A DNA stretch of 35,107 bases, taken from assembly GCA_017471365.1 (NCBI GenBank), contig JAFUUC010000015.1, positions 1 through 35,107 of the forward strand, written 5' to 3'. This DNA is from a bacterium (lineage in GTDB: Bacteria; Cyanobacteriota; Vampirovibrionia; Gastranaerophilales; Gastranaerophilaceae). This document shows, in pieces, positions 1 through 35,107 of the stretch. A model generated the notes under the pieces. The model did no database searches, had not been told where the DNA came from, and saw only the letters and a program-made list of their open reading frames with translations. A program made the translations under genes and the position numbers. Position 1 is the stretch's first letter; every line of letters begins with the position of its first letter.

Positions 1-337
1 CTACTGGGTAGGAGCTATGGTTGAGTGTAAAAATCAAGGTGGCAGATTACCAAAAGCGAGTGAACTTGCAAATATAGCTAAGGCAATATACAACGACAAT
101 TCAATCAGCGAGTCAGAAGATCACAACAATACAGACCCAACAGCAAACAATTGGGACACAAGCGTAACAGCAAAACTAGGTATAGAAGACTCCGCTTCGT
201 GGTTCTACCTTTGGGGTGACCTCGAGTACGACTCGCTCGATGCGTGGGGCCGCATCTTCGGCAGTTCGTACACGGAGTGGGACGGCTACGGCTACCGCGG
301 TTACGACCGTATCCGCGTTGTTTGCGTAGGAGGCTAG
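1..337 (+). CDS. Prepilin-type/C-type-lectin-like protein, 3' end (5' truncated by window)
   Basis: The reading frame is open from the first base (codons in phase from base 2) and ends at TAG 335-337, so the apparent ATG at 17 is internal. The peptide begins YWVGAMVEC and continues with a GGRLP motif. It matches the C-terminal part of the complete prepilin-like gene at 30757-31845, which has YWVGAMVEC then GGHLP, so the missing N-terminus is probably a type IV pilin-like signal. The GGRLP turn, the WFYLW strand and the terminal VVCV strand resemble the C-type-lectin/FGE-like fold of DGR target proteins (known family pattern; fold assignment is inference). From about base 190 composition changes abruptly to GC-rich, adenine-poor codons. 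A surface-exposed, possibly diversified pilin or secreted binding protein is the best guess; ligand unknown. Confidence 0.8.
   Translation, partial: YWVGAMVECKNQGGRLPKASELANIAKAIYNDNSISESEDHNNTDPTANNWDTSVTAKLGIEDSASWFYLWGDLEYDSLDAWGRIFGSSYTEWDGYGYRGYDRIRVVCVGG
200..334 (+). other. Candidate DGR variable region (VR) at the 3' end of the gene
   Basis: Bases 241-300 are 68% GC with 8 adenines, whereas bases 61-120 of the same gene are 37% GC with 26 adenines (counted by eye). In the tail, codons such as TAC, GAC, GGC, CGC, GGT, GAT, AGT and CGT alternate. All can be reached from AAC/AAT by changing only adenines. In DGRs, adenines of the template repeat are randomised during reverse transcription, so Asn codons become NNC/NNT. 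The scaffold positions (Trp, Ile, Phe, Val, Cys) stay constant. The tail sits at the C-terminal end of a lectin-like domain, where VRs normally lie. No template repeat or reverse transcriptase was found in the window. Confidence 0.62.
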
Positions 338-362: not shown

Positions 363-395
363 GGCGGGCTTAAAAAGTCCGCCATTATTTTTCTT
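363..395. terminator. Bidirectional intrinsic terminator
   Basis: GGCGGGCT (363-370) pairs with AGTCCGCC (376-383) around the loop TAAAA, with one G-T pair. The plus strand continues with a T-rich run (ATTATTTTTCTT). On the minus strand the stem is followed by seven T. It lies between the stop codons of convergent genes (337 and 428) and can serve both. Confidence 0.85.
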
Positions 396-30756: not shown

Positions 30757-31845
30757 TTAATTTGCTATACAAATAAATAAAAATAATGAAGAATCTCTAT
30801 TATTATAACCAGCATAAGGAGTATCTGGTTGATCATATTGAATCCATGGACCACCGTAACTTGAACTGGTATTTATGATATGTGCTAAACTAAATGCAGC
30901 ATGATCTTCTCGGCTACTCCACAAATAATACCAATCGGATCCTGTCAAACCAAGTTTGTTCATATTTATTTCATTAAAACTACCATTTACAAGCAACTCA
31001 TTTGCAATACTCCTCATTTCACTTGCACTAGGCAAATGCCCGCCTTGGCTGTTACATTCAACCATTGCTCCTACCCAGTAGTCATTATTGTTATTGAAGT
31101 AGCAATCATTAATGTTATAACCGGGTTGACCTTTGTAGTCACTACAACTAACACCTGTAGGAACTTTTGCCTGGCTGATTATTTTAACTCCGCCTATCTC
31201 TATATAAGAATCTTCAAGTTTTGCTCCATTAAATGAAATAAGGTCATTTCTTGTATGTTCATCGCCACCATACAAGTTTGGCTTTCTGGAACCGTTGAAA
31301 TCATATATACCGGCTATACAACTATGGATTTGTTTATTATCTACCTTTACACTATCAGGATCTGAGATACATTTTTTATCATAAGATAGAATAATCGGTG
31401 TACCGTCTCCTAATACTATTGCAACAGGGTTCATAAAATCCTTCTCTCCGCCGGTTGGAAGATTAAGTGAACTTGCTGAATTTATTTTAGATAATTCAAT
31501 AGATTTTTGTTCACCGTTTTGAATATAGTTTAATTCACTATACGGTAAACATTCTGTAAATGCTTTTGTAGATCCGTCACATACGGCTGTAATCTTCATG
31601 TATTTACTTAATTCTTCTACAAATTCAGCAGTAGAAGAATAGGTATCATTCATACCTCCGTGCAGATCTAACATGTTTAGTCCTTGGATAAGTTTAGCTT
31701 CGATTACAGCTTTTTGGTTTGAGTCAGCTTTTTCGTTGATCTTTGCAATCAAAGTTGGCAGGGTCATTGCTGCAACTACGCCGATGACTGCCAGGGTGAT
31801 TAGGACTTCTGCTAGTGTGAACGCTGGTACTGCAAATTTCTTCAT
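30757..31845 (-). CDS. Prepilin-type protein with C-type-lectin-like C-terminus
   Basis: 362 aa. A type IV prepilin leader is followed by FTLAEVLITLAVIGVVAAM with the conserved Glu5. The residue before the cleavage site is Ala (VPA/FTLAE) rather than the usual Gly. The middle (about 40-230) is a large extracellular region with paired Cys. The C-terminus has YWVGAMVECNSQGGHLPSAS, WYYLWSS and a final FICIA strand, the same lectin-like frame as the gene at 1-337. Its tail uses the AT-rich codons of the genome, with no NNC bias, so it does not look DGR-diversified. SD AAGGAG and a TTGACT-17-TATTGT promoter. Probably displayed on a pilus or pseudopilus, or released; ligand unknown. Confidence 0.88.
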   Translation of the reverse strand: MKKFAVPAFTLAEVLITLAVIGVVAAMTLPTLIAKINEKADSNQKAVIEAKLIQGLNMLDLHGGMNDTYSSTAEFVEELSKYMKITAVCDGSTKAFTECLPYSELNYIQNGEQKSIELSKINSASSLNLPTGGEKDFMNPVAIVLGDGTPIILSYDKKCISDPDSVKVDNKQIHSCIAGIYDFNGSRKPNLYGGDEHTRNDLISFNGAKLEDSYIEIGGVKIISQAKVPTGVSCSDYKGQPGYNINDCYFNNNNDYWVGAMVECNSQGGHLPSASEMRSIANELLVNGSFNEINMNKLGLTGSDWYYLWSSREDHAAFSLAHIINTSSSYGGPWIQYDQPDTPYAGYNNRDSSLFLFICIAN

Positions 31846-34487: not shown

Positions 34488-35107
34488 ATGAGAAAAAAAA
34501 TTAAATTCAAAAGAAAAGATGCAGGCTTTACTTTGGCAGAAGTCCTGATCACCCTTGCAATTATCGGCGTAGTCGCAGCATTGACTCTGCCAACTTTGAT
34601 TGCAAAAGTAAACGAAAAAGTCGACGGCAATCAAAAAAAAGTCACCGAAGCAAAACTTATTCAAGGCTTGAATATGCTTGACTTGCATGGCGGAATCAAC
34701 AATACTTATTCTTCAACCGCAGAATTTGCAGAAGAACTATCTAAATACATGAAGATCACAAAGATCTGCGACGGTACTAATACAGCATTTAGTGAATGTA
34801 TTCCGTATAGTGAAATAACATACAACAACGGAACAGAAGATAAAACTGTTGAAATTACTAAATTAAACACTGCGGATTCTTTAGGACTTGGAACAGTAAC
34901 TGTTGAAAAAGAATTTATTGCTCCGGTTGCATTAACTTTAGCTGAAGGGACACCTATGTTTCTTAATTATAATAAAAAATGTATTTCAGATCCTGATAGT
35001 ATAAAGTCTGATAACAAGAAAATACACTCATGTGTAGACGGATTGTATGATCTAAATGGCAGCCGCATGCCAAATAGAGTGGGAAAAGATTTGACTGCTA
35101 TGAACAA
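34488..35107 (+). CDS. Prepilin-type protein, 5' part (3' end outside window)
   Basis: 206 codons are in the window and the frame is still open at the end. The leader (MRKKIKFKRKDAG) is followed by FTLAEVLITLAIIGVVAAL, a canonical type III signal with Gly at -1 and Glu5. The rest follows the gene at 30757-31845 closely: KLIQGLNMLDLHGGINNTYS, LSKYMKITKICDGT, and CISDPDSIKSDNKKIHSCV. It is therefore a paralogue in opposite orientation 2.6 kb away, and presumably ends in the same lectin-like module. A perfect consensus promoter drives it, in contrast to the weaker promoter of the other copy. Whether its tail is DGR-like cannot be seen. Confidence 0.9.
   Translation, partial: MRKKIKFKRKDAGFTLAEVLITLAIIGVVAALTLPTLIAKVNEKVDGNQKKVTEAKLIQGLNMLDLHGGINNTYSSTAEFAEELSKYMKITKICDGTNTAFSECIPYSEITYNNGTEDKTVEITKLNTADSLGLGTVTVEKEFIAPVALTLAEGTPMFLNYNKKCISDPDSIKSDNKKIHSCVDGLYDLNGSRMPNRVGKDLTAMN

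Follow-up and report, generated by a model that had tools for sequence, protein, structure and literature searches.

Diversity-generating retroelements (DGRs) are usually described as one locus of reverse transcriptase (RT) and template repeat (TR) with one or few targets. The Bordetella phage BPP-1 system (bRT, Avd, TR, mtd) is confined to a single cis locus, in which a structured spacer follows the TR on its 3' side, and work on this DGR has described slippage in steps of three as well as a reverse-transcription stop motif at the 3' end of avd (PMC12875486). Systems with more targets have also been reported. Treponema denticola has a multi-target DGR with 2–7 targets per isolate (PMC4891356), Thiohalocapsa PB-PSB1 has 9 loci and 15 targets (PMC10907252), Trichodesmium erythraeum has 18 loci with homology between TR and variable region (VR) (PMC8867640), and in Pseudomonas costantinii 91 TR-VR pairs merge into 21 VRs inside a single adhesin gene (PMC6642488).

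The window analyzed here, a stretch of 35,107 nucleotides, is the entire contig C10 of a Gastranaerophilaceae assembly (1.8 Mb, 109 contigs, 96.9% complete; G000 in the coordinates below). We consider it very likely, with a probability of about 0.9, that positions 190–330 of the window are the VR of a DGR acting in trans on a large prepilin-like family. The system resembles that of BPP-1 in its adenine-specific TR-to-VR change, its Avd, its 3'-terminal VR in the target, its AAC-rich template and its 3-nt indels in AAC repeats, but differs in having stand-alone TRs, a structured element 5' rather than 3' of the TR, no adjacent RT and ~71 targets. Remote paralogous surface-protein targets are shared with T. 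denticola, in which strains keeping targets without RT and TR are known; that system differs in having one TR and one RT, at most seven targets, and lipoproteins in place of prepilins. Several TRs and remote targets are likewise found in PB-PSB1 and T. erythraeum, where trans action was inferred from perfect matches at non-adenine positions, but both have fewer targets and far larger genomes (PB-PSB1: 7.95 Mb), and PB-PSB1 has a complete locus with RT for each class. The VR itself is an ordinary DGR product, and what is unusual is the scale, the two template loci without RT and the 5' element. The ~70 targets are roughly fourfold the highest number of distinct target genes in the literature checked, with subscription papers and preprints outside the search, and no paper joining DGRs with Melainabacteria or Gastranaerophilales was found in the open-access literature searched. 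The relevant features of the window are as follows.

2..337, + strand: target gene of the prepilin family, 3' part only; open frame with the 5' end lost at the contig start
190..330, + strand: VR, copy of TR1 (G000:C36:508-645)
311..330, + strand: constant 3' terminus of the VR, with CGCGTTGTTTGCGTA at its end; no difference from TR1 and hardly any variation among TR1-type VRs
363..383, + strand: GGCGGGCT/AGTCCGCC hairpin with T-rich DNA after it, just 3' of the tail gene; read from sequence
30757..31845, − strand: prepilin paralogue without a template-derived tail; IV_pilin_GFxxxE above cutoff, N-methylation motif below cutoff (E=0.001)
34488..35107, + strand: another prepilin family gene, 5' part (MRKKIKFKRKDAGFTLAEVLITLAIIGVVAALTLPTLI...), cut by the contig end before the tail

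The first-pass annotation, made from sequence alone, had read the tail of the gene at 2..337 as a DGR VR on the basis of a composition flip within the gene and of its codon pattern. Both observations held, and the base composition figures were reproduced as 36.7% GC and ~43% A at bases 61–120 and 68.3% GC and ~13% A at bases 241–300. The reading itself also held, since the template was found in the genome and all substitutions in the VR at 190–330 fall on template adenines; 23 of the 41 adenines of TR1 are changed there, and none of its 97 other bases (Fisher p = 2e-15). The VR additionally carries one 3-nt insertion relative to TR1, within an AAC-repeat stretch. The annotation had proposed searching for a further copy of the tail carrying A wherever the two differ, and for a DGR RT nearby; the copy is TR1, but the RT was not found in the assembly, an absence that had been counted as refuting. 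This absence does not refute the VR status of the tail, given the template in the genome, because in congeners the layout is split in the same way, the RT lying on a separate contig next to a VR-bearing prepilin gene. The statement that the paralogue at 30757–31845 lacks a DGR tail held as well; it is a relative at the protein level, yet it is not among the 31 DNA hits of the window tail within its own genome, where the tail has ~30 DNA-level and the tail gene 96 protein-level matches. That the window's last gene, from 34488, belongs to this family too had not been visible to the annotation. By analogy with BPP-1, from which the role is inferred, positions 311–330 are where an initiation-of-mutagenic-homing (IMH) site might lie. 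The hairpin at 363–383 may be a transcription terminator, a VR stem-loop or both, an inference that rests on the sequence only; hairpins within 130 nt of VRs are enriched across the genome (37 of 60, as compared with 9 in shuffles).

A codon alignment of 22 paralogous tails shows variable NNC/NNT codons alternating with constant codons, such that every base occurs at positions 1 and 2 of the variable codons, with no movement at position 3 or in the constant codons. Writing AAC or AAT at each variable codon gave a blind prediction of the template, and this prediction matches G000:C36:515-643 at 127 of 129 bases. A second, related A-rich repeat, TR2, is the template for the other major set of tails. 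After it comes avd, whose product is 59% identical to the Avd of the relative G122 (G122:C12). The two TRs, the RNA element 5' of each and avd are all intact, at the following positions.

G000:C36:508-645: TR1, intergenic, upstream of rpoB
G000:C36:282-431, + strand: RNA element 5' of TR1 (locus L077)
Reverse complement of L079:10226-10370 (G000:C101): TR2, beside secA, then avd
G000:C101:30453-30559, − strand: RNA element 5' of TR2 (locus L079)
L079:9838-10176, − strand: avd (phrog_3206, 9e-23; Pfam bAvd above cutoff)

GC-rich dispersed repeats (CACCCACCCTAACCCTCCCT and others like it) lie around the template loci (L079:11300-11700, L077:1-130) and downstream of several targets, and it is possible that they too break the assembly.

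An 80-nt block, shared at 95% identity, stands 5' of each TR, and a related block precedes TRs across the family. The consensus fold of this element contains 20 pairs, 13 of which show pair-keeping changes on both sides, so that covariation is shown, with the caveat that the fold was derived from the same sequences and the count therefore leans towards the fold. A covariance model finds the element in 27 of 383 family genomes, 26 of which bear avd, and twice in the present genome; no Rfam family matched it among the nine loci scanned. In several relatives the element lies at the 3' end of avd, and a role shared with the BPP-1 stop motif is conceivable, though this is a guess by analogy.

A scan in which template adenines were treated as wildcards identified 71 VR loci at a score of at least 60, 24 matching TR1 and 47 matching TR2 with no locus counted under both, and 50 in total at the stricter score of at least 140. 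Reversed or codon-shuffled templates score no higher than 36, and the count may be wrong by a few loci among the weakest TR2 matches. Strain variants were considered as a source of inflation and rejected, as the downstream flanks are distinct at every locus checked; they share only dispersed repeats, and no pair is alike across the full 400 nt. The VRs occupy the 3' ends of genes, most of them ending 3–8 nt before the stop codon, and their variable codons (NNC/NNT) are in a frame that cannot yield stops. Most target genes with an intact 5' end carry the prepilin signal AFTLAEVLITLAxIGVVAAxTLPT, so the earlier description of the family as pilin-like held for its complete members; in the window gene, truncated at its 5' end, the prepilin N-terminus is not visible. 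The lectin fold, which the annotation had named for DGR targets in general, has only weak support here, from below-cutoff matches to Lcl_C, Lectin_C and an intimin C-terminus (E 0.06–0.12), and a structure model of the tail is unreliable (pLDDT 46, with only two window sequences aligned) and too poor for a fold search. Both this fold and a role in adhesion or recognition are inferred. Three tails are mosaic (L026, L028 and L039, on G000:C93, C98 and C17), with a TR1-like 5' part and the rest AT-rich and unrelated at the DNA level, which may reflect gene conversion or partial replacement.

The adenine bias of the TR-to-VR differences extends beyond the window. In the freshest VRs, template A is changed in 49–51% of cases and C, G or T in 0.7–3%. 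Non-adenine positions of these VRs differ by 3–4% between genes and the 100 bases preceding them by 16–17%, and in 101 of 105 TR1 pairs and 76 of 78 TR2 pairs the non-adenine positions show less divergence than the upstream gene. The rationale for treating this as a sign of rewriting is that VRs repeatedly copied from one template would remain alike at these positions, which simple duplication does not explain. The suggestion that the VR was recently active thereby gains indirect support (4% vs 16% upstream), and ongoing homing remains an inference made without population reads. Seven VRs carry no non-adenine change and 29 well-scoring VRs carry at most four. Several TR2-type VRs hold 10–21 such changes and one VR lies in a pseudogene, which indicates that upkeep does not extend to every target. 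The latter case, a frameshifted target pseudogene with a decayed VR (L042, G000:C105:6171-6458; 24 of 96 non-adenines changed), provides an internal standard for a target whose upkeep has ceased.

Where, then, is the RT? None was found in the 97%-complete, 109-contig assembly with Pfam RVT_1, nor with a profile aligned from the DGR RTs of the genus, even at E<=10, and of the 46 genomes in the family that bear avd, 43 yielded an RT with the same profile. Avd without RT also occurs in G064 and G114, which leaves room for the possibility that RT loss does happen or that another RT serves; G114, 99% complete, retains both avd and the RNA element (locus L145, G114:C14). In two congeners, G020 and G024, the RT is on a different contig from TR-avd. 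It adjoins a prepilin gene close to the end of its contig, and in G020 this gene has a readable VR tail. The 13 VRs scored in the two genomes show A-biased differences, and VRs located on other contigs differ from the TR chiefly at adenines. G024 has one TR and ~13 VRs. The RT neighbors differ between G020 and G024, with no conserved synteny, so no expected RT site can be defined here. Contig ends truncate the majority of the 71 VR genes, and the prepilin family itself therefore probably fragments the assembly. Since congener RTs sit beside VR-bearing prepilin genes, exactly where the present assembly breaks, we infer that the RT is more likely missing from the assembly than lost from the cell, probably in an assembly gap beside such a gene. 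An RT on a short fragment between two prepilin genes could have escaped the bin, the shortest contig examined being 3.2 kb. The present genome probably represents an extreme case of the split layout of its congeners.

In the proposed mechanism, two stand-alone loci would make the template RNAs, TR1 near rpoB and TR2 near secA followed by avd, each RNA carrying the structured 5' element. The RT together with Avd would copy the TR while misreading adenines, and the cDNA would replace the matching 3' ends of ~24 (TR1) or ~47 (TR2) scattered target genes, such that surface residues of pilin-like proteins would be randomized in NNY codons that never give stops. A bolder hypothesis, towards which we lean, is that RT-uncoupled template-RNA genes with a structured 5' domain repeatedly rewrite ~70 prepilin-like genes and so give each cell a large randomized repertoire of pilin-like surface tips.

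The alternative that survives best, though we judge it unlikely, is a fossil DGR in which the RT has been lost and the VRs are frozen remains of past mutagenesis, as reported for T. denticola strains. In its favor are the lack of an RT in the assembly, the 10–21 non-adenine changes in several TR2-type VRs, the decayed pseudogene and the state of G114. However, VRs with no or few non-adenine changes persist despite ~16% upstream divergence, the TRs, RNA element and avd are intact, and the position of congener RTs near contig ends, taken with the truncation of most VR genes here, offers another account of the missing RT. A second alternative, ordinary duplication with diversifying selection and gene conversion among paralogues and no retroelement, can draw on the mosaic tails but is all but ruled out, as changes are confined to the A positions of two non-coding template copies, synonymous sites of constant codons hardly vary, and avd lies after TR2. 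Horizontal acquisition of a GC-rich C-terminal domain in the recent past, suggested by the rise from 37% to 68% GC inside one gene, can be virtually dismissed because the tail maps to a resident template, owes its GC richness to that template (constant GCG, TCG and CGC codons plus A-to-G/C/T changes) and is common to ~70 genes and to congener TRs.

If the window tail belongs to a trans-acting DGR, as we favor, then one small host genome gives dozens of loci to such a system, and its templates are uncoupled from the enzyme. Two questions become directly testable: by what means a single RT can serve so many scattered targets, and whether populations maintain pilin-like proteins as a repertoire comparable to that of antibodies. 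The covarying 5' element provides a search model for template RNAs missed by RT-centered surveys. The RT clade of the congeners is common in phages; the prepilin tail family was absent from the viral contigs searched. Another congener, G005 (C75, C7; L212, L063, L070), holds three DGR-type RTs that belong to this clade, one within a compact avd-element-TR-RT locus.
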